DNA from: an uncultured Alphaproteobacteria bacterium
Lineage (GTDB): Bacteria; Pseudomonadota; Alphaproteobacteria; UBA7879; VGCX01
Length of the DNA: 49,964 bases
Assembly (NCBI GenBank): GCA_913061155.1
Contig: CAJXSI010000006.1
Coordinates: 1-49,964 of the forward strand
Reading direction: 5' to 3'
Part shown: positions 9,539 through 49,964 of the stretch, piece after piece
Layout: the number at the start of each line of letters is the position of its first letter
Position numbering within the stretch: the stretch's first letter is position 1
Translations under genes and position numbers: made by a program
The notes under the pieces: model-generated
What the model saw: the letters and a program-made list of their open reading frames with translations, nothing else
What the model was told of the DNA's origin: nothing
Databases searched by the model: none

Positions 9539-9586
9539 GTTGAATAAGAATAAATAACAGATGCTAATCTAAATAGGGAGAGCGCA

Positions 9587-11068: not shown

Positions 11069-11127
11069 TCTTTGATCAGCCCAGGCTGGGTAATTATTTG
11101 GAATAGGATGAAAAACATAGGTATAAG

Positions 11128-11655
11128 ATGAAAAATGATATAGTTGTAATGATGGTTGAAAATGTTGATGCAATGTGTGGAAGCATCAAATATGAAGGGT
11201 ACGCAAGGGGCATCCGCCTTCTTGAATTCCCGGAACTGCAAATTATCAACTCTGCCGAATCATCCCACAGTATTGGCATTCGTCCAAACAATGGGGAATG
11301 TCTGCCGATCACTGTGCGCACACACTATGACAAAAGTGTTCCAAAGGCCCTTGAAGCCATGGTAAAAGGGACGAACTTAAAAAAGATCACGATTTATCAT
11401 CTTGTATCAACCGGGGGTGACTCACTTACTTTAAACAGGTATATTGAACTGTCTGATGTTTATTTAATTAAGTTTGGCATACATTATTTTGATGCCTTTA
11501 ACCACGAAACGCCTCAAGGGGGGATTGCATCATATACCTTCAAACCTGATGAAGTAAAATCTGTTGCCAACGTGTTTGATGATCAAATGCAAGAACAAGG
11601 AAAATCAGGGTATTCAATTAATAATACGAAACGTATCACAGATACAGTAAGTTAA
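11128..11655 (+). CDS. hcp: Hcp-family T6SS tube protein, first copy
   Basis: A 175-residue protein of the Hcp family (secreted inner tube, hexameric rings). It shows ECLPITVRTHYDKSVPKALEAM, a tube-interface helix region, then ITIYHLV and the IELSDVYLIKFGIHYFDA beta strands typical of Hcp. It lies between tssC and a second, clearly different Hcp-like gene. The C-terminal extension after the core may carry a short signal or be structural. An upstream ATG at 11108 opens only an 8-codon reading frame and is not the start. Confidence 0.85.
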   Translation: MKNDIVVMMVENVDAMCGSIKYEGYARGIRLLEFPELQIINSAESSHSIGIRPNNGECLPITVRTHYDKSVPKALEAMVKGTNLKKITIYHLVSTGGDSLTLNRYIELSDVYLIKFGIHYFDAFNHETPQGGIASYTFKPDEVKSVANVFDDQMQEQGKSGYSINNTKRITDTVS

Positions 11656-11676
11656 AAATTTAGGACGGGGTGAGCC

Positions 11677-12333
11677 ATGCCAGAAAGACCATATAATTCA
11701 TTAGAAAGCAGCCAATTAAATGATGGACAAGTCGTCGCATCACCAACGTGTCTTTTGACTTCAACAGTCCACGAAGGCGGCGTTAATGTTGGAAAAATTG
11801 AAAATGCACACGAAGTCTTTTACTACTTTATTTCTGCTTCACGTGCTTCATTACCCGGGTATCATGGTCTGCATGAATCCACGGCAAAAATTCGTTTCAC
11901 GGCTTTAAACATTGCCTTACACAACAACAGCTATACCGAACCTTTTATGAAAGCTGTTTACAGTGGGGCCAGCATTGGTGACATTACCGTTACCAGTATT
12001 CAACATGCTGGTGAAGAATCTTTGCCAAGTTTTACAATGACATATAAAAACTGTCGACCTGTAAGTGGGAAAGTTTCCAGACTTAATGTTGGGGGGCGAT
12101 TGGGCGAAAATGTCATGAGTCGCGGGCATTACGAAGATCGTGTTGATATGGTGAATCGTCCTGTTGATGCAGATGATCCTTACAACCGTTCAGCAGAAGT
12201 TACCGCTTGCTGTTTAAAAATTCTTTTTGATCAAGTGGCGATTGTTTATCATGCTCTTACAGAAAGTGGCGAGGTTGATGGTCAAATAGCCGGTGGATTT
12301 AACTTAGTTAAAAACACAACAGAGCTTGAATAA
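11677..12333 (+). CDS. Second Hcp-like tube protein, divergent from the first
   Basis: A protein of 218 residues. The central part (about residues 60-150) has Hcp-like strands: TAKIRFTALNIALHN, then YTEPFMKAVYSGASIGDITVTSIQHAG, a helix plus strand equivalent to the Hcp core. Residues 1-55 and 150-218 are extensions not shared with the first copy. A GGGGTGAG ribosome binding site precedes the ATG, 21 bp after hcp1. Two unlike Hcps in one operon could form different tubes, mixed rings or an evolved Hcp. The sequence alone does not decide. I am less sure of the Hcp label here than for the first copy. Confidence 0.65.
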   Translation: MPERPYNSLESSQLNDGQVVASPTCLLTSTVHEGGVNVGKIENAHEVFYYFISASRASLPGYHGLHESTAKIRFTALNIALHNNSYTEPFMKAVYSGASIGDITVTSIQHAGEESLPSFTMTYKNCRPVSGKVSRLNVGGRLGENVMSRGHYEDRVDMVNRPVDADDPYNRSAEVTACCLKILFDQVAIVYHALTESGEVDGQIAGGFNLVKNTTELE

Positions 12334-12339
12334 TAAATC

Positions 12340-12897
12340 GTGGCAAGGAAGTGGGAAGACAAAGGGGCTGATGCCCCCTTATTCGACAAGCTTCGTGATG
12401 AAGACCCACAGATAACCGAAGAACATCCGATTTTTAAAAAATATGATCGCAAAGAACTTTTGCTTTCAGTCCAAAAGGAAGTTTCCAATATTTTAAATAC
12501 CCGTTGCAAGATGCCTTATCAAGAATATAAGGATCTTGACCCTGCGGATCTAGAGTATGGATTTCCTGAATTATTTGGCCTTCCCGACCAATCTTACGCT
12601 GACCCACAGTCCCCTGAAGGGGCGGATAAAATGGCGGACTTAATTGCGAATGCCATAGAAATATTTGAACCCCGACTGACGAATGTCTCTATTGAAATTC
12701 AGACATTCCATAAACAAAACCAATCTTTATCCGTTGGGGTTAATGGCGACCTTATTATAGGGGATGTTCGTGAACCAATTTCTTTTCCTGTTGCTGTGCA
12801 AGATTACGGTGCCGTTGCAACAGAAGAAAAAGTTGGATATGACACAACTGCAAAAATAGAATATACTAAAGATGATTCTGAAGGGGCAGATGAATGA
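12340..12897 (+). CDS. tssE: T6SS baseplate wedge TssE (gp25-like)
   Basis: A baseplate protein of 185 residues, homologous to phage T4 gp25. The N-terminal APLFDKLRDEDP motif, LLLSVQKEVSNILNTR, the YGFPEL region and IEIFEPRLTNVSIEIQ (the EPR core) all match TssE. It nucleates sheath assembly with TssF and TssG. The start is GTG at 12340, only 6 bp after the previous stop, without a clear ribosome binding site, so it is probably coupled to hcp2. The end overlaps tssF by 4 bp (ATGA). The last 15 residues are acidic. Confidence 0.93.
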   Translation: MARKWEDKGADAPLFDKLRDEDPQITEEHPIFKKYDRKELLLSVQKEVSNILNTRCKMPYQEYKDLDPADLEYGFPELFGLPDQSYADPQSPEGADKMADLIANAIEIFEPRLTNVSIEIQTFHKQNQSLSVGVNGDLIIGDVREPISFPVAVQDYGAVATEEKVGYDTTAKIEYTKDDSEGADE

Positions 12898-14702
12898 ATG
12901 ATTTTCACGAAAAGCATTTGCAATACTACCAACGTGAAATGTCCTTCCTTCGCAAGATGGGGGGGATTTTTGCGGCAAAGTATCCCAAGATTGCCAAGCG
13001 TCTGGGGTTAAGCGATACAACATCGTCTGATCCCCATGTTGAACGCTTGATTGAATCTTTTGCCTATCTTACATCTTATTTACAAAAAGATATTGATAAT
13101 CAATTTCCCCGAATATCATCTGCTATGTTGAACACCTTGTACCCCCAGCAAGTTAGTTTAATCCCCCCGATGAGCATTTGCCAATTTGAACCAGACCCCG
13201 AAGCTGGCTTAACAACGGCTTACGATATTCCCAGAAATTTCTCTATGTATGCCGAAGGGGATACGGGCGATGTCACACGATTTAAAACAGCCTACCCTGT
13301 TGAAATGTGGCCGATTAAAGTCACAGATATTTCAATGGTTAAAACAAACCTTTATGACCTTGGGGAAAAATTAACGGACCATACGTATGCTTTAAGAATT
13401 AAATTAAAATCTTTGTCCGAAGATTTAAGCCTATTGGATATAAAGAAACTTCGGTTTTTTATTAATATGCCGCGGGCGCAGGCCAATATTTTATACCAAC
13501 TTATTTTTGAAGAATCTTTAAAAGTTGGTGTCGTGGGCGCTGATGATAAACCTGCCTATATTGTGCCAGCCGGCTGTATCAGCCAAGTTGGATTTTCCCC
13601 GGATGAATCTGTTCTTCATGTGCCAAAAAATGGGCACCCTGCTTATACTTTATTGCAAGAATATTTCATGTTTCAAAAGAAATATATGTTCTTTGATATT
13701 GATAATTTGAACTTTAGAAATGCAGGACAAACGGCCGAAATTTTAATTCCTTTGTGTAATTCCAAAGATGCAAAATCCCTGGTTTTGGGGGAACGATCTT
13801 TGCTGTTAAACTGTGCGCCGATTGTTAACTTGTTTTACAAAACATCTGAACCCATTCGCTTGGACCATCAACGGGTTGAATACCGACTTATTCCAGATCA
13901 TCGTCGGGAAATGACCACTGAAATTCACAGTATTGACCGGGTTTTTTGTTCTGGCGAAGATGAAAAAGAAACGGTTGAAATTGATTCTTATTTTTCATAT
14001 AACCACCATTCTTTAAGCGAGGACAAAATGGGTTTCTGGCATGCGCGCCGTGTTCCAGCTGCCAATAAAAATATTCCGGGAACGGACATGCATATTTCTT
14101 TCGTGAATTTAAATTTTTCCCCAACAAGTCCGCCTATTGATGTGGCTTATGCACGGGTTCTTTGCACCAATCGACAGTTGGCGCCAACGGTTCCTGCCAA
14201 TGCGCTTTTGAATGAAGACGAAGGCACGCCAACAAAATCAATTCGATGTTTATATCAACCGACCGATACAAATTATCCTTCCGAAGAAGGGGCCACCCAA
14301 TGGCAACTTATTTCACAATTGGCTTTGAATTATTTATCCCTATCCAATAATGAAAAAAGTTTGGAAGCCTTAAAAGAAATGCTACGTTTATATTCAGGCG
14401 GACAGAAAAAAACAAATGATGTGGAAATCAATAGTCTGGTTAAAATGACCTGCGAACCCATTGTCCGACGCTTTGGAAAAGATGCGTGGCGTGGTTTCAC
14501 GAAAGGAACGGCTGTGACCATCACCATTGACGAAGGGGCTTCGGCCAGTTTGGGATCGTTCCTGTTTTCATCTGTTTTGGCCCACTTTTTTGGATTGTAC
14601 ACCACCATCAATTCATTTGTTGAAGTTACTGTTAAAAGCACACGACGTGAAGGGATTTGGAAAAAATGGCCACCAATAGCCGGCGCACAAGAACTTCTAT
14701 AA
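12894..14702 (+). CDS. tssF: T6SS baseplate protein TssF
   Basis: A protein of 602 residues, within the family's usual range. The N-terminus reads HLQYYQREMSFLRKMGGIFAAKYPKIAKRLGL, then DPHVERLIESFAYLTSYLQKDIDNQFP, the hallmark TssF opening. The middle has APIVNLFYKTSEPIRLDH, and the C-terminus has FLFSSVLAHFFGLYTTINSFVEV. TssF forms the wedge with TssE and TssG in the baseplate that docks on the membrane complex. It overlaps tssE upstream and tssG downstream by 37 bp, so translation is tightly coupled. Confidence 0.97.
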   Translation: MNDFHEKHLQYYQREMSFLRKMGGIFAAKYPKIAKRLGLSDTTSSDPHVERLIESFAYLTSYLQKDIDNQFPRISSAMLNTLYPQQVSLIPPMSICQFEPDPEAGLTTAYDIPRNFSMYAEGDTGDVTRFKTAYPVEMWPIKVTDISMVKTNLYDLGEKLTDHTYALRIKLKSLSEDLSLLDIKKLRFFINMPRAQANILYQLIFEESLKVGVVGADDKPAYIVPAGCISQVGFSPDESVLHVPKNGHPAYTLLQEYFMFQKKYMFFDIDNLNFRNAGQTAEILIPLCNSKDAKSLVLGERSLLLNCAPIVNLFYKTSEPIRLDHQRVEYRLIPDHRREMTTEIHSIDRVFCSGEDEKETVEIDSYFSYNHHSLSEDKMGFWHARRVPAANKNIPGTDMHISFVNLNFSPTSPPIDVAYARVLCTNRQLAPTVPANALLNEDEGTPTKSIRCLYQPTDTNYPSEEGATQWQLISQLALNYLSLSNNEKSLEALKEMLRLYSGGQKKTNDVEINSLVKMTCEPIVRRFGKDAWRGFTKGTAVTITIDEGASASLGSFLFSSVLAHFFGLYTTINSFVEVTVKSTRREGIWKKWPPIAGAQELL

Positions 14703-15712
14703 TAGAACGTGCCTATAAAGACGCGGATAAATTTGAATTCCATGCCATGGTTAAACTTATGGAAAGCATGGAAAAAGACAGCGTGCCTTTGGGGGAAGGA
14801 TCTGACCCAACGAAAGAAGCTGTTCGGTTGCAGGCACGTGTGGCTGAAGGGTTCCCCAACACAGATATTTTTAAGTTAATTGATCCAAAAACCGAAGAAA
14901 TTCCCCCGTTACTTATTACGAATTTTTTGGGCATTGCGGGGGCGCATGGCCCCTTGCCTTCCCCCTATACTGAACAAATAATTGAACGAACATCCAGACG
15001 CGATACAGGGTTCAGAGATTTCATTGATATCTTTAACCACCGTTTGATTTCCTTGCTTCATCGCATTCGTAAAAAACATTGGATTGGTATTTCCAACCAG
15101 CCGTCCCAAGAATCTTTGATGGGAAAATGCCTTAAGGCTTTGCTGGGGATATTTAATCCCCATTTAGAAAATCGCTTGGGCATTCCGGATCAAAGTTTAA
15201 CCCACTATGCTGGGTTATTATGGCAACGCCCTCGCTCTGCTTACGGGTTACGCCAACTGCTTGAGGGATTCTTTCGTATGCCAGTCGAAATCCACGAACT
15301 GGGGGGGAAGTGGAATTTTGTTCCCCACAGTCAATTAACCAGCATCGGAAAATCTGGACAATTCAATGAATTGGGAAAATCTGCCATTATTGGACCAAGA
15401 TTTTGGGATCAACAAGCTTTGTTCACCGTTAAGATTGGGCCCATGACTTTGGACCAATATGTTGACTTTTTAAAACCTGGAAAATCGTGGCGGACTATTT
15501 GCAGTATCATTCGATATTATGTAGGCAGCGACCAAGATTTCGTGATAAACTTAGTCTTAAAAAAAGAACAAGTTCCCAAACCAAGATTGGGATACGGGGT
15601 GGCAATTGGTTGGACAAATTGGTTAAATAGAACCAGTGCCAAACCTTATACAGATGATGAACAGTGTTATTTAACAACACGTTCTTTTAGAATTTCAGCA
15701 GGAGGCGATTAA
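14666..15712 (+). CDS. tssG: T6SS baseplate protein TssG
   Basis: A protein of 348 residues. Conserved parts are KFEFHAMVKLMESM near the N-terminus, PPLLITNFLGIAGAHGPLPSPYTE, the RDTGFRDFIDIFNHRLISLLHRI block (a TssG signature), YGLRQLLEGFF, and LGKSAIIGPRFWDQQ. It completes the TssE-F-G wedge. The ATG at 14666 is chosen with AAGGGA about 10 bp upstream. A TTG nine bases earlier is possible. The gene overlaps tssF, and its stop overlaps the clpV start (TAATG). Confidence 0.96.
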   Translation: MATNSRRTRTSIIERAYKDADKFEFHAMVKLMESMEKDSVPLGEGSDPTKEAVRLQARVAEGFPNTDIFKLIDPKTEEIPPLLITNFLGIAGAHGPLPSPYTEQIIERTSRRDTGFRDFIDIFNHRLISLLHRIRKKHWIGISNQPSQESLMGKCLKALLGIFNPHLENRLGIPDQSLTHYAGLLWQRPRSAYGLRQLLEGFFRMPVEIHELGGKWNFVPHSQLTSIGKSGQFNELGKSAIIGPRFWDQQALFTVKIGPMTLDQYVDFLKPGKSWRTICSIIRYYVGSDQDFVINLVLKKEQVPKPRLGYGVAIGWTNWLNRTSAKPYTDDEQCYLTTRSFRISAGGD

Positions 15713-18372
15713 TGCAAAACTTACAATCTTTAATTGGAAATTTAAATACAACGTGCAAAAGATGTCTTGAAGAATCCGCCCAATTATGTCTTGCCAACAC
15801 AAATGCCACGGTTGATATTGAACATTTATTATTTAAAATTTTGGAAAAACCTGCAACAGATTTATCGGTCATCATAAAGTACTATGAAATTGACGATAAA
15901 AAAGCCAAACAGCAACTTCAAAATGCCATTAATGAATTCAAACGGGGAAATAATAAAACACCCTCAATGTCCCAACAATTGATTAAATTATTGGAAAGAT
16001 CTTGGGTTATAACATCCCTAAATCTTAAACAAACACAGATCCGTTCTGCGGCGTTATTGATGGCCATTTTAAAAACCGAAGAATTATTGGGGGTTTTGGT
16101 TAACAGCTGCCAAGAACTTTTGAAAATCCCAAGAAATAAATTGGAAGAAGATGTCCTGGAATTAATTAAATCCAGCCCTGAAGATGTCTCTGGCGGAAAT
16201 TTAAACAGCAGCACAGGGGGGGCAAAAACAGATTCTGGTGGCCAATCATCCACCCAGGCATTGGATAAATTTACAATCGATTTAACACGCCAAGCCAAAG
16301 AAGGAAAAATTGACCCCATCGAAGGTCGTGATACTGAAATCAGACAGATGTTAGATATCTTGGGACGCCGTCGCCAAAACAACCCAATCTTAACCGGTGA
16401 GGCCGGTGTGGGAAAAACAGCCGTTGTTGAAGGTTTGGCTTTGAAAATTGCCGCCGGCGATGTGCCTGACAGTTTGAAAAAAGTCAGCATTCGTACTTTG
16501 GATCTTGGCTTATTAGAAGCCGGGGCCGGCATGAAAGGGGAGTTTGAAAACCGATTAAAATCCGTTATTCAAGAAGTTCAAAGTTCGTTAAACCCCGTTA
16601 TTTTATTTATTGACGAAGCCCATACATTAATCGGCGCCCAACAAAATGCGCAAAATGATGCGGCCAATCTTTTAAAACCCGCCTTGGCCCGTGGGGAATT
16701 ACGTACAATTGCCGCAACAACTTGGGATGAATACAAACGATTCTTTGAAAAAGATGCGGCCCTTACCCGTCGATTCCAAGTCATCAAAGTTGAAGAACCA
16801 AGTGAAGATGTGGCGGTAAAAATGTTACGTTGTTTAACTGAAAAATTGGAACAACACCATAAAGTTTTAATCTTGGATCTTGCCATCAAAGATGCCGTTC
16901 GTTTATCCAATCGCTACATTGGGGGACGCAAACTTCCTGACAAGGCTGTAAGTGTTCTTGATACGGCCTGTGCCAGGGTAAATCTTGCACAAAATTCCAC
17001 TCCCGAAGCAGTTGAAACTTTAACCCGTGATCTGGAACTTTTAGGCATTGAAAAAGGCCGCTTGCAAAAAGAAGAATTAAGTGGTCATACCCACCAAGAT
17101 CGGCTTGCCCAAATTGCGGTGGATGTTCAATCAAAACAATCTGAATTAAATACCGTTAAGAAAGCCTGGGAAGAAGAATTAAATCTTGTTAAAGAAATTA
17201 ATATTGTTCAAGGCAAAATATTGGAAATCAATGAACAGAATGGTCCCGATCACCCTGACATGAAAGACCTTAAAACACAAATCAGTAAATTGAAAAAAGA
17301 TTTGGAAGACACGCAAGGGGGCAAAGGATTGGTTCCTGCTTGTGTTGACGGAAGTGTTGTCGCCCAAGTTATTGCTGGGTGGACAGGTATTCCATTGGGT
17401 AAAATGTTACGGGATGAAATTAATACGGTTCTTAGCCTTAAAGAAATCATGGCCAATCGTTTAATTGGTCAAGCCCAAGCTGTGGACACCATCGCCAAAC
17501 ATATCGTAACATACCGTGCCAATTTGGATGAACCAGGCAAGCCTGTAGGTGTCTTTTTATTGGCTGGACCAAGTGGGGTTGGTAAAACAGAAACGGCCTT
17601 GGCCTTGGCGGATACCTTGTATGGGGGGGAACGTAATTTAGTAACCATCAACATGTCTGAATACCAAGAATCCCATACCGTATCTTCTTTAAAGGGGTCG
17701 CCTCCGGGTTATGTTGGTTACGGCGAAGGCGGTGTACTGACTGAGGCCATTCGTCGCAATCCCTATAGTGTCGTATTGTTAGACGAAATTGAAAAAGCCC
17801 ACCCAGATGTTCTGGAATTATTTTATCAAGTTTTTGATAAAGGAATTTTGGAAGATGCAGAAGGCATTGAAATTGATTTTAAAAATACTGTAATTTTAAT
17901 GACAACAAACCTGGCATCAGAAACCATTATGAAGGAATGCAAAAATCCAAAAAAATTACCCGAAGTAAAAAAGATGGCCGATATCATCCGCCCAGAACTT
18001 TCTGCCCATTTCAAACCGGCCTTGTTAGGGCGGATGACAGTGGTTCCGTATTATTCATTAAATAAGGATGAAATTACTGAAATCGTGCATCTAAAATTGG
18101 ACCGTATTAAAAAACGATTTGACCTTAATCATGGGGCTGATTTTTCGTATGACAAAGATGTCATAAAGTTTATTGCAGATCGCTGTGATGATCCTGATTC
18201 TGGCGCCCGTAATATTGATTATATTATCAACCAAAATTTATTACCGTTATTGTCGGCTGATGTTTTAAAACACATTGCAGATGAAACGCCTTTTGGTAGT
18301 ATCAAAGTATCCATTAAACGCGGTGAATTTACCTGTGATTTTGAAACATCAAAAATTGCAAACAAGGCTTAA
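15712..18372 (+). CDS. clpV: T6SS sheath-recycling AAA+ ATPase ClpV (TssH)
   Basis: A protein of 886 residues, typical for ClpV1-type unfoldases. It has an N-terminal Clp repeat domain (1-165). The first AAA module has Walker A GEAGVGKT (229-236) and Walker B LFIDEAH. A middle-domain coiled coil follows. The second AAA module has Walker A GPSGVGKT (619-626) and VLLDEIEKAHPDV. It disassembles contracted TssB/TssC sheaths so that subunits can be reused. The T6SS context and the shortened middle domain separate it from housekeeping ClpB. A strong GGAGG ribosome binding site lies inside the end of tssG. Confidence 0.97.
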   Translation: MQNLQSLIGNLNTTCKRCLEESAQLCLANTNATVDIEHLLFKILEKPATDLSVIIKYYEIDDKKAKQQLQNAINEFKRGNNKTPSMSQQLIKLLERSWVITSLNLKQTQIRSAALLMAILKTEELLGVLVNSCQELLKIPRNKLEEDVLELIKSSPEDVSGGNLNSSTGGAKTDSGGQSSTQALDKFTIDLTRQAKEGKIDPIEGRDTEIRQMLDILGRRRQNNPILTGEAGVGKTAVVEGLALKIAAGDVPDSLKKVSIRTLDLGLLEAGAGMKGEFENRLKSVIQEVQSSLNPVILFIDEAHTLIGAQQNAQNDAANLLKPALARGELRTIAATTWDEYKRFFEKDAALTRRFQVIKVEEPSEDVAVKMLRCLTEKLEQHHKVLILDLAIKDAVRLSNRYIGGRKLPDKAVSVLDTACARVNLAQNSTPEAVETLTRDLELLGIEKGRLQKEELSGHTHQDRLAQIAVDVQSKQSELNTVKKAWEEELNLVKEINIVQGKILEINEQNGPDHPDMKDLKTQISKLKKDLEDTQGGKGLVPACVDGSVVAQVIAGWTGIPLGKMLRDEINTVLSLKEIMANRLIGQAQAVDTIAKHIVTYRANLDEPGKPVGVFLLAGPSGVGKTETALALADTLYGGERNLVTINMSEYQESHTVSSLKGSPPGYVGYGEGGVLTEAIRRNPYSVVLLDEIEKAHPDVLELFYQVFDKGILEDAEGIEIDFKNTVILMTTNLASETIMKECKNPKKLPEVKKMADIIRPELSAHFKPALLGRMTVVPYYSLNKDEITEIVHLKLDRIKKRFDLNHGADFSYDKDVIKFIADRCDDPDSGARNIDYIINQNLLPLLSADVLKHIADETPFGSIKVSIKRGEFTCDFETSKIANKA

Positions 18373-18385
18373 AAGTTAAACATAA

Positions 18386-20665
18386 ATGGCTAAATTAATT
18401 TCCCATGCAAACACATATTTATCTGTCACCACAAAGTTGGGGACGGATAAAATTATTTTGAATCATTTCAGCGGCGATGAAAAATTAAATGGCTTGTTTG
18501 AATTTGATTTGGAACTTTATATTCCTTATGCCATTAATGCAAAAAATTATGATTTAGACTTTTCAAAACTGATTGAAACTGAAGTCACCGTCACCATTAC
18601 CTTGGATAAAAAAGTTCGTTATTACCACGGGTTGATCACCGAATTAATGCAGGGGCCCACTATTGCCTCTGGGGCTGAAAAATTACAACGCACCCACGAA
18701 CATACCTATTTTTATGCCAAGGTCCGTCCAACTGCGTGGCTGCTGACCTTAACTGAAAATTGTGAAATCCATCAAAATAAATCTGCGATGGATATTATCA
18801 AAGAAATTTTGGCAAAACATAAAGTAACGATCAAGGATGCCACGTCCAAAAGGGGAACCTTAAAAAGGGAATATTGTGTTCAGTACAACGAAAGTGATTT
18901 TGCTTTTATTTCAAGGTTAATGGAACAAGAAGGCATCTATTATTATTTCAAGCATGAAAAAGCAAAGCATACAATGTACCTGGCGGATGGAGGAAAACCC
19001 TGGGAAAAACACACCGATGCAGATACGGCATCCGTCACTGTTTATAACACCCAACATGCTTCCCCTGTGAGGCCTTGCTTGTATGATATGCGGTTATCAC
19101 GCCAAATTGTGCCGTCAAGTTTTACGTATAATGATTATGATTTTGAAAAACCCACAACCAAATTAAAAGCCGAATCAAAAGGCGTGGGAAAAGGGCGTGA
19201 TTATTATCATTATCCCGGGAAATACAGGATTCAAAAAAATGGGGCGGCCTATACAGATATGCGTTTGGATGCCCTGGAATATCCATCTGATGCCATTCAT
19301 TCCAAATCCAATATTCCTATGTTGGAAATTGGGCATTCTTTTAAAATGGATAATGCCTTGCGAAAGGATTTAAATAAAAAAGAATTTGTTGTATTTTCAA
19401 TCCATCACGATGCCAAAATTCAACCAGAAGAAGAACAAAATTATACGGATGAAATTGTTTACAGTAATACTGTCAGTTTTTTCAAAAAAGATCTTTCTTA
19501 TCGGCCGCCGTTAAAAACCCCTTGGCCAAAAATTCATGGGACGCAAACTGCCACCGTTTCAGGAAAATCTGGCGAAGAAATTTGGACCGATAAATATGGC
19601 CGCGTGCAGGTAAAATTCCACTGGGATTTAAGCACAACAAAAAATGATAAAGTATCTTGCTTTGTTCGGGTGGCCCAGGCATGGACGGGCAAACAATGGG
19701 GTATCTTGTTTACCCCCCGAATTGGTCAAGAGGTCGTCATCAGCTTTTTAAACGGAAATCCTGATGAACCCTTGGTAACTGGATGTGTTTATAATGGGGA
19801 TAATCTGCCGCCTTATTTACCCTCTGAAAAAACAAAAAGCACCATTAAAACAAATACATCCCCCAAGGGCGGTGGGTTCAATGAATTGCGTTTTGAAGAT
19901 AAAAAAGATGCAGAAGAAGTTTTTATTCACACCCAAAAAGATTACAATACAACTGTTTTAAATGGGGAACGAACCGTCACAATCGAAGGTAAAAAAGATT
20001 GTGGTCACGATAAATTAACCATCCGAAAAGGGGACCGAACTTTTTTGATTGAAGAAGGCGATCAATCTGATACTTTGAAAAAAGGGGATAAAACAACAAC
20101 TCTTGAAAAAGGAAATGATACAGAAATTTTGAAAGATGGGAATCAAACCATTACCCTTGAAAAAGGGAATCAAAGTACTACGTTAAAAAGTGGTAACCAG
20201 ACGATTGATATAAAAGGCAACCAAACAGAAACCATTTCAGGCAATCAGACTGTTACAATAAAAGGAAATCGCCAAACCACCATCAAGGGAAATGATACAA
20301 CAAAAGTTACGGGAAATATGGCAATGGATGTTACTGGTAACATCACGGCAAAATCCAAAGGAAAAGTAACAATTGATGCAATGGGCGATATTACAATTAA
20401 AACGGCTGCAGCAACCATTAAAATAAGTGCATCCGGAAAGATTGATATCAAAGGTCCGACAGGTGTTGGCATTGAAGGCGCCGCAAAAGTTGATATTAAA
20501 ACATCTGGTATGTTAACAATTAAATCATCCGGTATGGGAACAATACAGGCGACCATGTTAACTGTTAAAGGGTCTGCAATAGCTGTTTTCGAAGGCGGCG
20601 GCATGGCAACATTAAAAAGTGGGGGCATAGCCGCCGTCAAAGGCTCAATGGTAATGTTAGGATAA
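18386..20665 (+). CDS. vgrG: T6SS spike protein VgrG (TssI)
   Basis: A protein of 759 residues. Residues 1 to about 380 form the gp27-like base, with motifs HEHTYFYAKVRPTAWLLTLTENCEIHQNKSA, YCVQYNESDFAFISRLMEQEGIYYYF. The gp5 OB-fold follows, with EIWTDKYGRVQVKFHWD, VRVAQAWTGKQWG and PRIGQEVVISFLNGNPDEPLVTG. From about residue 540 a run of roughly ten-residue repeats with GNQT/GDxT cores makes the triple-stranded beta-helix needle. There is no extra enzymatic domain, so effectors probably attach through the next genes. The sequence ends in a hydrophobic VMLG tip. Confidence 0.96.
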   Translation: MAKLISHANTYLSVTTKLGTDKIILNHFSGDEKLNGLFEFDLELYIPYAINAKNYDLDFSKLIETEVTVTITLDKKVRYYHGLITELMQGPTIASGAEKLQRTHEHTYFYAKVRPTAWLLTLTENCEIHQNKSAMDIIKEILAKHKVTIKDATSKRGTLKREYCVQYNESDFAFISRLMEQEGIYYYFKHEKAKHTMYLADGGKPWEKHTDADTASVTVYNTQHASPVRPCLYDMRLSRQIVPSSFTYNDYDFEKPTTKLKAESKGVGKGRDYYHYPGKYRIQKNGAAYTDMRLDALEYPSDAIHSKSNIPMLEIGHSFKMDNALRKDLNKKEFVVFSIHHDAKIQPEEEQNYTDEIVYSNTVSFFKKDLSYRPPLKTPWPKIHGTQTATVSGKSGEEIWTDKYGRVQVKFHWDLSTTKNDKVSCFVRVAQAWTGKQWGILFTPRIGQEVVISFLNGNPDEPLVTGCVYNGDNLPPYLPSEKTKSTIKTNTSPKGGGFNELRFEDKKDAEEVFIHTQKDYNTTVLNGERTVTIEGKKDCGHDKLTIRKGDRTFLIEEGDQSDTLKKGDKTTTLEKGNDTEILKDGNQTITLEKGNQSTTLKSGNQTIDIKGNQTETISGNQTVTIKGNRQTTIKGNDTTKVTGNMAMDVTGNITAKSKGKVTIDAMGDITIKTAAATIKISASGKIDIKGPTGVGIEGAAKVDIKTSGMLTIKSSGMGTIQATMLTVKGSAIAVFEGGGMATLKSGGIAAVKGSMVMLG

Positions 20666-20669
20666 CAAA

Positions 20670-21632
20670 ATGGCAGATTATATTTCACCAGAATTTCTTG
20701 AAAAACTTCGTATGATTAATAAGAAGAAAGAAGTTGAAAAACAGACCGAGGAAGATTTAAAAACCGCTGAGAATTTTAGCGCCTATGATGCGATTAAAAG
20801 CACGATCGATGAAGACGAAGAAGATTTGGAAAACAATCAAACAGCCCCTTTCTTAATGGATCTGCCTATGGATCCTGCAAAGGCTTCTGTGCCTAAAGCG
20901 CCAGAATCAAAAGAAGAACCTGCCCCTGAAATGGGTGACATAGACGACGGGGTTCGTGAAATCAAAAAAGATACCGGGGAAATTGTTCAACGTATTCCGT
21001 ATAAAAATAAAAAAATTCACGGAACGGTAGAAATTTATAATGACAATCAAATTCTTGTGCAAACAATTCCTTATAACAAAGGGGTGATGGAAGGTGTTTC
21101 AAGGGCCTATGATGAAAATGGACAATTGCTTCAAGAAATTACCTTCAAAGAAAATATTAAAAATGGGCGCATTGTCTTTTATAACAACGGTAAAAAAGCA
21201 GCTGAAATGTTGTATGAAAATGATGAATTAAATGGGCCTGCCCTATTTTACGAACCAGGGGGGAATATCACCACTGTTTCTTATTATAAAGATGGGAAAC
21301 TTGATGGTGAAATGACAGCCTATACTGAAAATAAAACCATTACGAAAAAATGTGTTTATGAAGCCGGGGCCTTAAATGGTCTTTCCTGTATTTATTATCC
21401 CAGTGGAAAAATATTTGAAGAGTCCACTTATGTGAATGATGTATTGGAAGGGGATGTCATAAGTTATTATGAAAATCGGCAAGTTATGACGCAAAAAAAA
21501 TACGAAGCTGGTAAACTTATTTCAGAAGTTACCTATGACCAAGATGGTAATTCAATGAATCAAGATGTAAGCACCAATGATCCCAAACAAACCATGTTGG
21601 ATGCCATCGAAAAATTAAAGGAAATGGAATAA
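20670..21632 (+). CDS. MORN_2-repeat protein between vgrG and the PAAR-like gene
   Basis: A protein of 320 residues. The first 95 are helical and highly acidic. Residues about 100-290 hold seven or so repeats of about 22-25 residues with the pattern GxxxxYYxNGKxxxExxYxxGxLxG, typical of MORN_2 (toxin-antitoxin-repeat variant) domains. A short helix ends the protein. It starts 5 bp after vgrG and ends 2 bp before the PAAR-like gene. Genes in this slot usually encode adaptors, immunity proteins or effectors loaded on the spike. No signal peptide or catalytic motif is visible, so I favour an adaptor or chaperone role. Confidence 0.75.
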   Translation: MADYISPEFLEKLRMINKKKEVEKQTEEDLKTAENFSAYDAIKSTIDEDEEDLENNQTAPFLMDLPMDPAKASVPKAPESKEEPAPEMGDIDDGVREIKKDTGEIVQRIPYKNKKIHGTVEIYNDNQILVQTIPYNKGVMEGVSRAYDENGQLLQEITFKENIKNGRIVFYNNGKKAAEMLYENDELNGPALFYEPGGNITTVSYYKDGKLDGEMTAYTENKTITKKCVYEAGALNGLSCIYYPSGKIFEESTYVNDVLEGDVISYYENRQVMTQKKYEAGKLISEVTYDQDGNSMNQDVSTNDPKQTMLDAIEKLKEME

Positions 21633-21633
21633 A

Positions 21634-22020
21634 ATGCCACAACTTGCAACAACTGGCGCCCTGGCAAAATGTATTTTTGGCGTTGCCCCAGCCCCCCTAA
21701 ACTTTCTACCTAGTTATAAAGTTACAGCCACAACACCTGCTGGAAATATTAGCGATTTCAAGCCATTTTCGAATATTATTCCTTTTGGGATGTGTATGAG
21801 TCCTGGAAACCCTGCTGTCTTAGCAGCAACCATTGCGGCCCTGGGGGTTCTTACCCCGATGCCTTGCACACCAAATATTTCAACGCCTTGGATTCCGATG
21901 GCCCCAACAAAAATGATTGGCATGATGCCTGTCGTTACATCAGTCAGTATGCAGGTATGTAAATTTGGGGGGTTAATTAAAATTAATTTTCCAGGGCAAG
22001 TCACTGTGCAAGTAAGCTAG
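21634..22020 (+). CDS. DUF4280 PAAR-like spike-tip protein
   Basis: A protein of 128 residues that follows the DUF4280 pattern: GALAKCIFG near the start, FKPFSNIIPFGMCMSPGNP, MPCTPNISTPW, and a final CKFGGLIKINFPGQ. The paired Cys/Gly-rich turns resemble PAAR folds that cap the VgrG needle and sharpen it. No C-terminal effector domain is attached. It follows the MORN gene by 1-2 bases. That vgrG, MORN protein and tip are encoded in a row suggests a pre-assembled spike. Confidence 0.85.
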   Translation: MPQLATTGALAKCIFGVAPAPLNFLPSYKVTATTPAGNISDFKPFSNIIPFGMCMSPGNPAVLAATIAALGVLTPMPCTPNISTPWIPMAPTKMIGMMPVVTSVSMQVCKFGGLIKINFPGQVTVQVS

Positions 22021-32469: not shown

Positions 32470-32512
32470 ATCTATTAATGGGCTTGTTGAATGATCAGGT
32501 TTTTAAGGCGGG

Positions 32513-32589
32513 ATCCAGGGCGGTATTCACCAGACACAATTTTTGTCATTCTGGTGCTTGATACCAGAATCCAGGGCGGTATTCACCAG
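32513..32589. repeat. 21-bp direct repeat flanking a palindrome
   Basis: ATCCAGGGCGGTATTCACCAG occurs at 32513-32533 and again at 32569-32589. Between them is the inverted repeat ATTCTGGT (32548-32555) / ACCAGAAT (32563-32570). This is the start of the palindrome-rich gap before nadK. Confidence 0.85.
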
Positions 32590-33500
32590 GTTTCCCGTTA
32601 AAGTTGCCCGAAATCTGGACATATTGACACAAGTATGGTTAACCTCAGCCAATGGGTTTTTTCGCTTTGCTTCATAACTGCGTTAAATTGCCTAAAAAAT
32701 AGGCACGAAAAACCGCGGAAATTAATTTTTTTATTAAAAAAGTGCCTACGCGCGCATGGCTTAGGCAAAACAGGCCTAACCAATTAATGCGGGTTACAGG
32801 CCTGTAATAAATATAACTAACTGAAATAACTGACTTATTTATCCATGCGTAAAACGCATACAATTTCCCGTTAATTTTACCCAGACTAGATTTTTTTCAG
32901 GAGGCAACAAAACGGCAGGCGCATCGAATTCGGTAACCTCTGGCCTGGACCCCGTGTCAAGCACGGGGCGACGAAGTTAGAGGGTATCAAGTAACACATG
33001 GATTCTGAACTAAACTCAGAATAACAAACGATCCTACTCCGATGACACGTATCGTCGTCCCGGACTTGATCCGGAATCCACACGCTAACTGCCTCCTCCA
33101 ACCTCGTCATCCTGGTGCTTGACACCACTCAACCTCGTCTCCCCGCACTTGATGCGGGGTCCAGTCCAACTTAGACATCTTTCTTCATTGTCGTCCCGGA
33201 CTTGATCCGGGATCCAGAACACTGTTCATCACAGACAATTTGATTACCCTTAACAACATAGTTGATGACAAGCTAAAGTTATATCCGGTGAACACCGCCC
33301 TAGACCCCGCATCAAGTGCGGGGCAACGATATAAAATAGCCATCGAATTACTGAACTTATATTCAGGGCGACGAAGTTGGAGGGGGCAAATACCGCTGTG
33401 GATTACGGATCAAGCCCGGAATGACAATGAAGAAAGATGTCTAAGGTGGACTGGGTCCTGGTGTCAAGAACCAGAAGGGCGATACATAATTCAGGGATAA
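32590..33500. repeat. Non-coding palindrome-rich block between the DsbA-like gene and nadK
   Basis: No credible gene. The stretch holds many short palindromes built round a TTGA/TCAA centre. CCCCGTG-tcaag-CACGGGG is at 32950-32968, CCGGA-cttga-TCCGG at 33060-33074, CCCCGCA-cttga-TGCGGGG at 33141-33159, CCCGGA-cttga-TCCGGG at 33195-33211 and CCCCGCA-tcaag-TGCGGGG at 33305-33323. ATTCTGA/TCAGAAT lies at 33002-33022. A 48-bp inverted repeat (33161-33208 against 33407-33454, 44 of 48 matching) encloses 198 bp. Such elements are widespread between alphaproteobacterial genes. They are much richer in GC than the flanking genes. Confidence 0.85.
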
Positions 33501-41674: not shown

Positions 41675-41750
<76 letters not shown>

Positions 41751-41798
41751 CCCTCATCAAGGGTTTCGGGGCTTCCATGATTTAACTCATAATCAAAA

Positions 41799-41817
41799 AG
41801 TCACCAATAAGTCACCA
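41799..41817. repeat. Tandem AAGTCACCA repeats just after tRNA-Lys
   Basis: AAGTCACCA occurs at 41799-41807 and 41809-41817, one helical turn apart, 50 bp past the tRNA. Paired short direct repeats beside an attachment core are typical integrase arm-binding sites. The core attachment copy at the other end is not in the window. Confidence 0.4.
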
Positions 41818-41975
41818 CGAGAAGTTTTTTTGGGTTTGAAAAAGTAAATTTAAACTTACGCCTCACCTAAAGTATCTAAAGTTAACACCATCAGTTAACA
41901 AATTGCACATCATAATAACTTATGATAATACATCTTAACATTTTTAATTTTCAAAATATTTAGGGGCTTCAATCT

Positions 41976-42473
41976 ATGAAAAATAACTTCTCTACAATAA
42001 AAAAATCAAAACTAATTACCAGGAAAGAAATAGAAGAAAAGGTTCAGAAACACTTATCTGTAGATCGATACAATGAAGAAAGAATTAATCAATGCTCCTC
42101 TTCCTTCCAAAATATATCTGAAGAAATATTCTTAAGCAATACCGTCCATCCAACACAAAATAAAAAAGCCACACAACCAAACAACATAAAACCCAAAGCT
42201 GGCCTCCATTTACCCCAAAAACAAAAGAAGAACTCAAAAACAGTAGTAAAAGAAGCAATCCACTTAGCTATAACTAAGCTTGAAGAAAAGTATAATAAAA
42301 TGGGAAAATATAAAGTCATGGACCTTGCAAAACAAATAGACGAATTAAAAGATATTTCTTGGCCAAAGAAGAAACCTACTTTAAAAAGTATTAAGCGCTA
42401 CCTTGGTGGTTGGGATAATATTATTAGTATTCTTGGAAGAAAACCGGACTTCTCTTACCAGAAGAAGCCCTAA
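41976..42473 (+). CDS. Unknown basic protein at the left end of the island
   Basis: A Lys-rich protein of 165 residues that I do not recognise. The N-terminal 95 residues look disordered. The C-terminal 65 form helices (TVVKEAIHLAITKLEEKYNKMGKY), then KKKPTLKSIKRYLGGWDNI, which looks like a small DNA-binding helix-turn-helix with a conserved GGWDNI end. It has an AGGGGC ribosome binding site. A regulatory or DNA-packaging role is possible. It is first after the tRNA and on the same strand as the replication genes. Confidence 0.6.
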   Translation: MKNNFSTIKKSKLITRKEIEEKVQKHLSVDRYNEERINQCSSSFQNISEEIFLSNTVHPTQNKKATQPNNIKPKAGLHLPQKQKKNSKTVVKEAIHLAITKLEEKYNKMGKYKVMDLAKQIDELKDISWPKKKPTLKSIKRYLGGWDNIISILGRKPDFSYQKKP

Positions 42474-45597: not shown

Positions 45598-45972
45598 CTA
45601 CCGCATATAATCTATAAAATCTCTATCTTCATTATTATAATCGGGATCTATTTTTGGGTCCCAACCTCTCTTACGTCCTTTTGATCTTAGAAAATATAAA
45701 AGACTTTTAACGCAGCCACTTTCTATATGTTCCCATAATTTATTTTCTACATAATCAACAAGTCTATATTCAACTTCTTTGCAAGATTTTTTAAAAATAG
45801 GATCACTTCTTTTCCACTGATAAAAAGTTTCCGCAGAAATATTTAACTCACGACAAGTGTCATATATTCGACCATGATTTTTTTCTAAAACCTCCGGAAA
45901 TAATTCTTTCTCTTTTTGTTTGTATGGAAATTTCGTAATTTTATCTGAAGGGGTTTTTATGTTTGAACTCAT
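45598..45972 (-). CDS. Small-terminase-like helix-turn-helix protein
   Basis: A protein of 124 residues. The core FPEVLEKNHGRIYDTCRELNISAETFYQWKRSDPIFKKSCKEVEYRLVDYVENKLWEHI has the order of phage TerS / phBC6A51-type proteins (a helix-turn-helix, Trp-x-x-x-Asp-Pro-x-Phe, an oligomerising helix). Then SLLYFLRSKGRKRGW follows, as in those families. TerS selects DNA for packaging. I start at the ATG 45970-45972, with a near-perfect AGGAGAGAG site, not at 46026. It is the only minus-strand gene in the replication region. Confidence 0.7.
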   Translation of the reverse strand: MSSNIKTPSDKITKFPYKQKEKELFPEVLEKNHGRIYDTCRELNISAETFYQWKRSDPIFKKSCKEVEYRLVDYVENKLWEHIESGCVKSLLYFLRSKGRKRGWDPKIDPDYNNEDRDFIDYMR

Positions 45973-46229: not shown

Positions 46230-47171
46230 ATGAAAAAGTTTATCTTTAATTTTAGTGCAGGTCATTGGCTAATATTCACTTCTTTTTTATTTATATTATT
46301 GGGATTGCCTGTTTTTTTTGAAGCAAGCTCCGAAGAAATCGCAGAAAAAATATGCTACTTAGCAAATTTCTTATTATTGCCCTTTTTAATTTACTTTTTA
46401 TATATAAGAAACAAACCATCTAAAAAAGCTAAAATTGCATTGATAATTGTTGGTTTGGTGGCAATTACGAAAGCATCAACAATATTGGTAAACAGGTATA
46501 AAGAAAATAAATATTTTACTGCATTATCTTTAAATTTAATAAAGTCAGTCGAAAGCGATTACAACATAGAAAAATTCTATGAGTCTAAAGAAAATGATCC
46601 TTTAATCTATAAAAAAAAGAAAAAAACCGTTGATTTTATAATAAAGGTATTTGCAGAAAGAAATTCTTTTAATAAATTAGTGAAGAAAATAAATAGTTAT
46701 ATTGAAAAAATAGATATGAAGCAAATTCTTTCTGAAGAGATTTTCTATAAAAAGGGCTTTATACAAACCTCTGAAACTAAGTTAGAAGAACTTAAAAAAC
46801 TCTATGAGATGAGATTTGAAGCAAATAATATATGGCTTAATAGCTTCAAAAAATTATTTACAGGTCATAATAAGAGAAATTTGAAAAAAATACTTAGTCA
46901 AAGGGAGAGTTCAAAAAAACTACTGATGGAATGGAAAGACAACTCAGATAAAATTTTCTCAAGTGCTTCTATAATTTTGAACATAGCCAATAAATATTAT
47001 AAAAAGCCAGAAGAAATGACAGAAGGAGATAAACTCCTGCTCAATGAATCAATTGAAAATATAATAAAAGGAGGAAAAAAAGAAGAAAAAATAATTAGTG
47101 AATTGCATTACAGGGAAGATTTTCTGTTACAACTATTAAAAAATGATGCATATTTATTGAATTATTTCTAG
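46230..47171 (+). CDS. Unknown membrane protein with long helical cytoplasmic region
   Basis: A protein of 313 residues. Three transmembrane helices (about 11-30, 41-59 and 68-88) are followed by about 220 Lys/Glu-rich residues predicted as helices and coiled coil. There are no enzymatic motifs. Base composition is strongly AT-rich, as in the next gene, unlike the T6SS and core genes. It has a ribosome binding site AAGGAAG 8 bp upstream. The pairing with the following gene 27 bp later suggests a two-gene cargo unit. Membrane plus soluble pairs of this kind are often defence or toxin cassettes, but nothing here proves it. Confidence 0.6.
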   Translation: MKKFIFNFSAGHWLIFTSFLFILLGLPVFFEASSEEIAEKICYLANFLLLPFLIYFLYIRNKPSKKAKIALIIVGLVAITKASTILVNRYKENKYFTALSLNLIKSVESDYNIEKFYESKENDPLIYKKKKKTVDFIIKVFAERNSFNKLVKKINSYIEKIDMKQILSEEIFYKKGFIQTSETKLEELKKLYEMRFEANNIWLNSFKKLFTGHNKRNLKKILSQRESSKKLLMEWKDNSDKIFSSASIILNIANKYYKKPEEMTEGDKLLLNESIENIIKGGKKEEKIISELHYREDFLLQLLKNDAYLLNYF

Positions 47172-47197: not shown

Positions 47198-47695
47198 ATG
47201 GGTTTGATAAAAACTACGCCTCAAGAAAACAATCATATAAATTTTCTTTTTAGTGATTTAATTACAATGCTAGAAATTAGAGAATATGAAAAAGCATCTC
47301 CCAAGTTTATTTCTGTTTTTGACCATTGGCTCACAAGAGAAGAAGTCACTGAAAAATTAGACAAAATGAATAGACATGAACATTCATTACATAGCCAAAA
47401 GTTTCAAAATTTATGGCTACATATATATAGCCAACATGCTATATATACTTATATTAAAACTCATTCTCAATATTTTCGCATTAAGACAAAAGAATGTTTA
47501 AAAACCTATTTTGATAATACGTATGATAAATACTATAAGGATGAACCTATTTTCTTAATACCAGACCTTTTCCTTGTATTCATGCCCATAACAGATCATA
47601 CAATTATGTATTTTGATAATGAATTCATAGAAAAATCAGATTTTTATGGAGCTGTTAAGAATGCAAATTTATATATCTTAGACTCACAGGAATAA
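47198..47695 (+). CDS. Unknown soluble protein paired with the preceding membrane protein
   Basis: A protein of 165 residues that I do not recognise. No signal peptide or membrane segment. It is helical at first (LFSDLITMLEIREYEKASPKF), has a His-rich stretch (RHEHSLHSQKF), then Tyr/Phe-rich strands (YKDEPIFLIPDLFLVFMPI). It has an AGAGAGA ribosome binding site and the same orientation as the previous gene. It could be the regulator, immunity or effector half of that pair. Confidence 0.55.
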   Translation: MGLIKTTPQENNHINFLFSDLITMLEIREYEKASPKFISVFDHWLTREEVTEKLDKMNRHEHSLHSQKFQNLWLHIYSQHAIYTYIKTHSQYFRIKTKECLKTYFDNTYDKYYKDEPIFLIPDLFLVFMPITDHTIMYFDNEFIEKSDFYGAVKNANLYILDSQE

Positions 47696-48381: not shown

Positions 48382-49428
48382 TCATTCATCTTCGGAGTCG
48401 GAGTCGGAATCTGAATCACTTTCGTCTTCAGAACCACTTTCATCCTCTCCACCCAGGACAGAAGCCAATTTTCCTCTAAGGTCAAAGTGATTTTTTATAA
48501 GCATTTTTAAATTATCTTCTCTACTATCAACATCTCCCATCACACACGATAAAAATTCATCAAAGTTTTCAGCTAATACGAGTAACGATGCAAAGGGAAA
48601 ATTATATAAACCTTCATCTTTTTCACCCCTATGAGAAAGATATCTCCTTGAACTTTCCATCTCAAAAAGTAAGGAAAGGGCATTAAGATAGGCCGAACTG
48701 TGCTCAACATAACCTTCCTTAAATATCTTTCTTGTTCTTATCTTAGTTATGGGGAAAGAAGTCTCATCCTTTAAAAGAAGAAATGCCTTATTTTTTCTAT
48801 CTTCATCAACAAATCTATCAACTAGCCCATCAAAAGCGGGAGTCGTATATTGAGTAGGAACTTCTGCAGGTGTTGTAAAATTTATGAAAAGGTTTCCATG
48901 CTGGGACCTTAGTGGCTGGAAAGAGATAGTAGCAGTCAGTTTTGATCCAAATTTGATTTTTAAGTCTTTCTTGCTTTTGTATTTAAAAGTACGATGAGGG
49001 TGTTTTCCAAACATTCCATACAACGCACCGCCATCTTCATATATGTCATTATCTATGGCATCGGCATGAGGCAAAACACCTTCAGGTACGATCTGATCAT
49101 ACAAAAAATCTACATTTATATTAACACACTCGGCAAAAAAGATAATTCTAGCTCTACGAGATAAATTAGATATATCTACCACTGGGCAGTCTGCCACATC
49201 TCCATCAAAATATGCTTTATACTCCTCAATCTTTACTGCAGACGCGGATTTTCCGTGCTCACGAACATAGTGTCTATCAACCTTTGCAAGCTCCGTAATA
49301 AATTCATCACTTGGATCATAGGCCGCCGCACACATTCCCAAAATAGGGATTGTTATAAAGCTTAATAATAAAATTAATACTGTTTTTTGGGACCTACCTA
49401 TATTAACTCTTCTTTTAAATATAATCAT
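48382..49428 (-). CDS. Exported protein with a Ser/Asp/Glu repeat tail, function unknown
   Basis: A protein of 348 residues. The N-terminal signal peptide (hydrophobic core about 16-36) ends in MCAAA, a usual cleavage site. The middle has no motif I know, with a few Cys and many charged residues. The final 20 residues are almost purely Ser, Asp and Glu in DSDSDS order, followed at once by the stop. It has an AAAGGA ribosome binding site. Acidic Ser-Asp tails occur on some secreted or surface proteins and can bind calcium or act as low-complexity spacers. It is cargo of the island, between the dead transposase and the integrase. Confidence 0.65.
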   Translation of the reverse strand: MIIFKRRVNIGRSQKTVLILLLSFITIPILGMCAAAYDPSDEFITELAKVDRHYVREHGKSASAVKIEEYKAYFDGDVADCPVVDISNLSRRARIIFFAECVNINVDFLYDQIVPEGVLPHADAIDNDIYEDGGALYGMFGKHPHRTFKYKSKKDLKIKFGSKLTATISFQPLRSQHGNLFINFTTPAEVPTQYTTPAFDGLVDRFVDEDRKNKAFLLLKDETSFPITKIRTRKIFKEGYVEHSSAYLNALSLLFEMESSRRYLSHRGEKDEGLYNFPFASLLVLAENFDEFLSCVMGDVDSREDNLKMLIKNHFDLRGKLASVLGGEDESGSEDESDSDSDSDSEDE

Positions 49429-49796: not shown

Positions 49797-49964
49797 TTAT
49801 TTTTCTGTTGTGATTGCCTCCATAAGCTTTTCACTATGGTTTTCTAAAGCTTCCCTTCTTTGATCTGGTGCATAGCGTGCATAAGTCATTGTTGTGCTTT
49901 GATTTGTATGGTTTAGTACTGTGCCAATTAAATGCAAACTACTCCCTGACTGTGCTAGCCAAGA
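49797..49964 (-). CDS. Tyrosine recombinase (phage/P4-type integrase), C-terminal end only
   Basis: The last 55 residues of a tyrosine integrase, running off the right edge. SGSSLHLIGTVLNHTNQSTTMTY-ARYAP contains the second catalytic box, with the histidine of LNH and the nucleophilic tyrosine in TTMTYAR, then the usual REALE helix. The stop is at 49797-49799. It is on the minus strand, so its start lies to the right. It would catalyse insertion of the island at an attachment site. It was too short to be listed as a full gene. Confidence 0.92.
   Translation of the reverse strand, partial: SWLAQSGSSLHLIGTVLNHTNQSTTMTYARYAPDQRREALENHSEKLMEAITTEK

Follow-up and report, generated by a model that had tools for sequence, protein, structure and literature searches.

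A lone small-terminase gene in a tRNA-Lys island, probably of phage-satellite type, of an uncultured alphaproteobacterium

Background

Some PICIs carry a lone terS, which drives their packaging by a helper, and PICI terS and replication genes are transcribed in one direction (PMC6092414, in part). The search model for PICMIs combines an integrase, AlpA (PF05930/PF12728) and a DUF3987 primase, and their prototype, PICMI115, is without terS and lies by fis in Vibrionaceae (PMC10803314, in part). The characterised GTA TerS, that of R. capsulatus (RcGTA gp1), has no N-terminal HTH (PMC6854486, in part). A literature search for satellites with terS or DUF3987, and for alphaproteobacterial, Holosporales and Rickettsiales hosts, found no such island among papers of which most were judged by their listing.

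Here we describe an island with a predicted small-terminase (TerS) gene in an uncultured alphaproteobacterium and compare it with these systems.

Results

Borders and gene content of the island

The stretch of DNA analysed (hereafter the window, 49,964 nucleotides) was the whole of contig C6 of a reduced genome (1.26 Mb, 51 contigs). As listed in Table 1, the 3' end of a tRNA-Lys gene was contained in a perfect direct repeat. Searched for within the window alone, a second att copy was not found; it sat on contig C42 of the same genome, was identical to the first over 66 bp and could not be extended. When the genome was searched for integrases, C6 proved to finish with a C-terminal fragment of one, and C42 to open with a larger fragment. 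The two contigs shared 55 identical bases, at the end of C6 and the start of C42, and the integrase reading frame was continuous across the join. Because the contig break fell within the integrase, the evidence for the join is the 55-bp overlap together with the att repeat rather than a single assembled sequence. Given the exact 66-bp repeat on C42, the element measured 9,394 bp from att to att, its true end lying 1.2 kb beyond the window end. The GC content was 0.325 in the island vs 0.398 in window positions 1-41700. Beyond attR were found a peptidase gene, a GmhA-like gene and ABC transporter genes (names by eye). The arm-like repeat of Table 1 had its partner beside the integrase start (L197 1042-1072, L197 being the fetched stretch of C42), and these two repeats are, by sequence, probable binding sites of the integrase.

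Two side observations concern the same contig. The assembly break inside the integrase (window 49964 / L197 1), with its 55-base shared end, could be a sign that the sample contained another version of the island end. Window positions 8981-22020 held, by eye, a type VI secretion-like cluster (sheath, baseplate, ClpV and VgrG types).

Table 1. Features of the island and of its borders (window coordinates unless a contig is named)
Feature	Position	Strand	Evidence or remark
tRNA-Lys (CTT), island integration site	41675..41750	+	ARAGORN, Rfam RF00005
attL, 66-bp perfect direct repeat of tRNA-Lys 3' end	41702..41767	.	
Arm-like repeat (AGTCACC..TAAGTCACCAC)	41787..41818	.	blastn, 90.6% over 32 columns
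165-aa protein, no assigned role	41976..42473	+	weak family matches, best phrog_18520, E 0.0071
AlpA/excisionase-like HTH protein, 83 aa	42884..43135	+	phrog_2528 (no known function), E 2.6e-6
Primase, DUF7146 + Toprim_3, 317 aa	43128..44081	+	Pfam E 2e-25 and 1.8e-14; phrog_510 primase, E 1.4e-36
DUF3987 replication protein (helicase/primase type), 501 aa	44071..45576	+	PF13148, E 1.1e-86
Predicted TerS, 124 aa	45598..45972	-	convergent with DUF3987 gene, 21-bp gap
313-aa protein, hydrophobic N-terminal part	46230..47171	+	ORF; no family
165-aa protein	47198..47695	+	ORF; no convincing family
348-aa protein, signal-like N-terminus, acidic Ser/Asp/Glu tail	48382..49428	-	no convincing family
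Tyrosine integrase, C-terminal end	49797..49964	-	PF00589, partial match 49869-49964
Tyrosine integrase, remainder	C42, L197 2-1045	-	PF00589, E 2.9e-20; PF13356 arm domain, E 3.7e-15
attR, second att copy	C42 1187-1252 (L197)		

The AlpA-like protein also matched phrog_2620 "excisionase and transcriptional regulator" (E 1.9e-4) and, under the cut-off, Pfam HTH_17 (E 0.0023), and the DUF3987 protein matched the DNA helicase family phrog_2373 (E 2.3e-60). No TerL or virion gene was recognised by family scans of the island genes, and phmmer with 63 TerL seeds against the window and L197 detected no TerL in the island. The island was in keeping with the general picture of a satellite, i.e. a bounded integrated element with an integrase and replication genes and without virion genes, and lacked the TerL, portal and capsid genes that a complete prophage holds between its att sites. 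A first, sequence-only reading of the window had reported no large terminase beside the small one and would have counted a TerL just outside the window against its claim. The former was confirmed; past the window end the island closed with integrase, attR and host genes, and no TerL was found there.

Form and family of the TerS gene

The ORF had 124 codons with an ATG start, and its 5' flank, AAAGGAGAGAGCTT-ATG, was a good Shine-Dalgarno match; an alternative in-frame ATG upstream would give 142 aa. As a single sequence it matched PHROG 4044, terminase small subunit, weakly (E 1.4e-5) and Pfam HTH_Tnp_1 under the Pfam cut-off (E 1.7e-4), nearly all its weak Pfam matches being HTH domains, and an NCBIfam scan of the ORF gave no convincing family. 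An HMM of 32 viral homologues, with the window row excluded, matched the ORF at E 3.7e-30 and selected it as the only one of 453 ORFs of the window and own-genome stretches, leaving the other 452 unmatched; its source alignment had been built with the window row in it, so the column register of this HMM is not fully independent. In an alignment of the TerS homologues (A4), C40, Y51, D73 and E76 were invariant and R102, G103 and others nearly so. The similarity to TerS proteins encoded beside TerL was full-length, including the helical part beyond the HTH.

From the lone minus-strand position and the ribosome binding site, the sequence-only reading had suggested that TerS is timed apart from the replication genes. 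Promoter-like sites were found at chance level (36 vs 34.2 expected), and the gap between the convergent stops of the TerS and DUF3987 genes contained no terminator-like site. The LexA-type box has the motif GTTCN7GTTC; with one mismatch permitted it was also at chance level (26 found vs 30.0 expected).

Viral relatives of TerS and their neighbours

A tblastn search of TerS against 50,697 phage records gave three matches, and in all three annotated phage matches an annotated TerL lay immediately downstream of the TerS homologue. Single-sequence TerS scans of viral contigs, genome contigs and plasmids found no relative, and 116 viral relatives in IMG/VR were reached only once the window TerS had been aligned with two of the phage proteins (A3). 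The best 80 of these 116 were fetched and formed 31 groups under a rough redundancy filter. Among these best 80, 75 had at least 600 bp of downstream sequence, and in 53 of the 75 a TerL was found next to the TerS relative by phmmer with seed sequences. For the remaining 22 the next ORF was of 425-503 aa at an offset of -22 to +22 nt; Pfam TerL families were recognised in five of six representatives, and the 503-aa neighbour type (11 loci) had no Pfam match.

The ORF belongs to a sequence family of terminase small subunits whose phage members lie directly upstream of TerL, and on this similarity it is identified as a phage small terminase (TerS). The claim of the sequence-only reading that a small-terminase-like gene with a strong ribosome binding site lies on the minus strand was borne out by the HMM match and the Shine-Dalgarno flank. 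Among other genomes, TerS was detected in 0 of 2 of the family, 0 of 5 of the order and 3 of 384 of the class; one of these three matches (L042) was FtsI-like and was rejected as false.

Predicted structure of TerS

Single-sequence folding of TerS gave a pLDDT of 43.6, and this model was set aside. The AlphaFold2 model from A4 had a mean pLDDT of 82.5, with block means of 95-97 for residues 21-90 and helices at 16-31, 36-42, 47-56, 58-84 and 88-102. In this model a loose N-terminal tail was followed by an HTH, a long helix with a second helix as a hairpin and a loose C-terminus, i.e. by an N-terminal HTH and then a helical region, whose part in oligomerisation is putative. The predicted HTH points to site-specific binding.

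In a Foldseek search of the PDB the eleven best rows were TerS-type (2ao9 of phBC6A51, Sf6 TerS), with E-values of 0.16 to 1.3. By VIA-align, the model matched Sf6 TerS with Z 7.0 over 58 residues and phBC6A51 2ao9 with Z 6.4 over 85, whereas regulators scored lower (SpoIIID and NtrC1, Z 5.0; TetR-type, Z 4.8 and below). In a structure search of a viral library five matches had E < 0.001, of which two carry the name phBC6A51-type domain protein; entries labelled terminase small subunit came at higher E-values. The sequence-only reading had called for comparison with TerS structures and had regarded a plain transcription regulator fold as fatal to its claim. The predicted fold was instead consistent with TerS rather than with a plain regulator, evidence that is weak when taken alone and falls short of proof.

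TerL elsewhere in the genome

That reading had also proposed a search for TerL elsewhere in the island or in co-resident prophages. Searches of the whole genome found a single one, on contig C10: PF03237 gave this TerL above the cut-off and one sub-threshold match, and PF04466 and PF05876 gave none in the own genome (PF05876 was positive in the Finniella genome, E 7.5e-4). The A5 TerL profile detected no TerL in six genomes of the order, in a search without a positive control. The C10 TerL lay in a GTA-like cluster with portal, protease and capsid-type neighbours (gene names by eye), and no TerS was seen upstream of it. It was split into ORFs of 257 and 165 aa by a 566-bp repeat insert (L044 9638-11475; L008 923-1488).

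Repeats like those of the insert were also present at window 32508-33442. In the loci fetched from two same-family genomes (L046, L047), the GTA-like TerL was represented by its N-terminal ATPase part alone, with unrelated genes after it, which suggests that the cluster is decaying across the family.

Relatives of the replication module

DUF3987 relatives at E < 1e-20 were present in 10 of 384 other genomes of the class; the primase as sole query had no viral relative. Scans with a DUF3987 alignment provided 142 loci (80 kept of 246 genome loci, and 62 viral loci), in which TerS and TerL were detected with seed sequences and not exhaustively. A TerS-like gene was found in at least 12 of the 142, KHGILS-type matches excluded. 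TerL was next to it or near it in seven of these 12 (L052, L056, L131, L132 and L153; L177 by a weak match; L152 by eye), no TerL was in view in L072, L078 and L158, and L093 and L098 ended too early for TerL to be judged.

The KHGILS-type proteins L051k and L053k had been used as trial TerS seeds; their identity as TerS was unsupported, and 12 matches, seeds included, were removed from the counts. In L051, L053 and 10 more loci such a protein was encoded directly behind DUF3987 or close to that place, where it is an alternative to TerS. The TerL ORF of L177 (5781-8129, 782 aa) seemed by eye to have an intein-like insert past the ATP-binding start. On Paracoccus versutus pTAV4 (L014 15397-18045) an integrase-primase-DUF3987 island contained the gene of an 882-aa protein matching the phage DNA ejection protein family phrog_26400 (E 5.2e-13); phmmer found no TerL in the 25 kb taken from this locus.

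Three full prophages, L052, L131 and L132 (47-49% identity), were among the closest DUF3987 relatives in the matches listed from the genome and viral scans. These three and the full prophage L056, all of Holosporales/Rickettsiaceae-type hosts, began with int-primase-DUF3987, followed by TerL, portal and capsid-type genes. The nearest replication modules were those of Candidatus Finniella inopinata, with the order int-primase-DUF3987-TerS-TerL-portal-capsid, and of two IMG/VR contigs, all full prophages with a different TerS-like gene. With the window TerS as phmmer query, only L098 and L169 of the 142 loci were matched at E < 1, so it had no match to the TerS-like gene of the full prophages.

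Islands with the same module also held a lone, different TerS or TerS-like gene (L032, L033/L078, L072 and L158). L032, which came from the search of the class genomes and lay next to a tRNA-Ala gene, contained int, an AlpA-like gene, primase, DUF3987 and a phrog_2412 protein, then two further ORFs and host murI (by eye), and no TerL was found in its 20-kb stretch. Between the TerS or TerS-like proteins of the window (phrog_4044-like), L035/L093 (Terminase_2, E 2.6e-12), L032 (phrog_2412), and L033/L078 and L072 (phrog_15261-like) no mutual similarity was detected. Neither phrog_2412 nor phrog_15261 has an assigned function; the phage homologues examined lie directly upstream of TerL in EJ-1 and Javan576 (phrog_2412) and in MW202462 (phrog_15261). 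In the window, L033/L078 and L035/L093 the TerS or TerS-like gene was convergent, and in L032, L072, L098 and L158 it was co-directional. A search for att repeats of the islands L032, L072 and L035 found none.

Discussion

On the sequence evidence, the gene is probably the TerS of a complete 9.4-kb island of phage-satellite type in tRNA-Lys, where it would steer the TerL of a helper, and the most likely mode of action of the island is that of a satellite steered by TerS, of the general PICI/PICMI type. On helper infection or induction the island would be excised by its integrase and AlpA-like protein and replicated by its own primase/DUF3987 module. TerS would be expressed from its own minus-strand unit, bind a putative pac site on the island and pass the island DNA to the helper TerL, by which it would be packed into helper particles. 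As the searches detected no intact TerL in the genome, an infecting phage is probably the helper, not a resident one.

The satellite reading is favoured by the borders, the far-end integrase, the host genes beyond and the lower GC content of the island, by the identity of TerS from the HMM and the TerL-adjacent homologues, and by the lone, different TerS of other islands with the same module. It is favoured too by the core of the PICMI model, with lone terS known in some PICIs (PMC10803314 and PMC6092414, each in part), and by the N-terminal HTH, which is missing from the characterised GTA TerS (PMC6854486, in part). Against it stand the orientation of TerS opposite to the replication genes, unlike described PICIs (PMC6092414, in part), the finding of no terS in the PICMI paper (PMC10803314, in part) and the E-values above 0.1 of the PDB fold matches.

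The main rival is that a complete prophage of the Finniella type lost the block from TerL to tail and kept int, the replication genes and TerS. As the closest DUF3987 relatives (L052, L131, L132) are full prophages, the island could be such a deletion product, and the same int-primase-DUF3987 module leads these three and L056, in all of which TerL was recognised; the reduced genome, with its split GTA-like TerL, is also compatible with loss. The sequence-only reading had taken a lone TerS as a hallmark of satellites that redirect the packaging of a helper. The bounded, integrase-bearing island with its replication module agrees with a satellite, but the same module occurs in full prophages, so a lone TerS is no proof of a satellite and the element may be a remnant; because a DUF3987 module with TerS would fit a full prophage equally well, the borders of such an element are needed before it can be called a satellite. 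We nevertheless consider a remnant unlikely: the island genes are intact ORFs and the att repeats perfect throughout, unlike those of a decayed remnant, its TerS lies on the strand opposite to the replication genes, whereas the four full prophages have both on one strand, and is unmatched to the TerS-like gene of those prophages, and other islands, too, have a lone TerS behind their replication genes.

Two further explanations were rejected. That the HTH protein is a transcription regulator of the island, derived from a re-used TerS or a transposase-type HTH and without a role in packaging, would suit the HTH domains among its weak Pfam matches and the structural rows of SpoIIID, NtrC1 and TetR-type proteins; it is quite improbable in view of the full-length similarity to TerL-adjacent TerS, with conserved residues beyond the HTH, and of the better structural rows of Sf6 TerS and 2ao9. 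Still more remote, and hardly credible, is a TerS of the genome's own GTA-like cluster on C10 that has relocated to the island and acts in the packaging of the GTA. The C10 TerL, with its portal, protease and capsid-type neighbours, indeed has no TerS visible upstream, and in another genome (G058) a GTA-type TerL is directly preceded by a TerS that belongs to the same broad family. However, the C10 TerL is interrupted by the repeat insert, G001 and G002 keep only the N-terminal half of TerL in the 3.6- and 2.4-kb loci seen, R. capsulatus GTA TerS is without the HTH that the window TerS has (PMC6854486, in part), and the gene sits within an element of foreign origin that is bounded by att repeats.

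If the island is a TerS-steered satellite, it may, tentatively, represent an undescribed alphaproteobacterial family of phage satellites with an integrase, mostly an AlpA-like regulator, a primase, DUF3987 and, behind the replication genes, a TerS cassette that can be exchanged. From their sequences, the mutually dissimilar island TerS look as if each had been taken from the current helper, and different TerS genes in the same island type suggest that the helper could be changed by the swap of one small gene. TerS-steered satellites would then extend to reduced-genome alphaproteobacteria, whose phages are hardly known, and the island TerS would be a handle for finding the helper.

Comparison with known systems

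Like PICMIs, the island is small, with an integrase, an AlpA-like regulator and a DUF3987 primase and without structural genes (PMC10803314, in part); the AlpA assignment is by PHROG, the PF12728 match being under the cut-off. It differs from them, as described in that part of the paper, in having terS, a separate DUF7146/Toprim primase gene, a tRNA-Lys site instead of one downstream of fis, and an alphaproteobacterial host outside Vibrionaceae. With PICIs (Gram-negative, SaPI) it shares an integrase, an AlpA-type regulator, a primase and, at times, a lone terS (PMC6092414, in part). PICI terS is co-directional with the replication genes (same source, in part), whereas the island terS (-) is convergent with them (+); no interference genes were recognised in the island, and the DUF3987 family is unmentioned in the part of PMC6092414 considered. 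The prophages L052, L056, L131 and L132 have a similar integrase and the same primase and DUF3987 module, but their TerS, TerL, portal and capsid-type genes all lie on one strand, and of these genes the island has a TerS alone, and a different one. RcGTA gp1 is likewise a TerS of an alphaproteobacterial element, but it is without the N-terminal HTH of the window TerS (PMC6854486, in part), which moreover is not beside a GTA TerL. The phBC6A51-type and Sf6 TerS (2ao9, 3hef) gave the top rows in structure comparison and share the HTH and helical hairpin of the model, but with 12-25% identity and Foldseek E-values of 0.16 and above. By the features examined, the island joins a core of PICMI type to a TerS of PICI type whose orientation is reversed, and it belongs to neither group.
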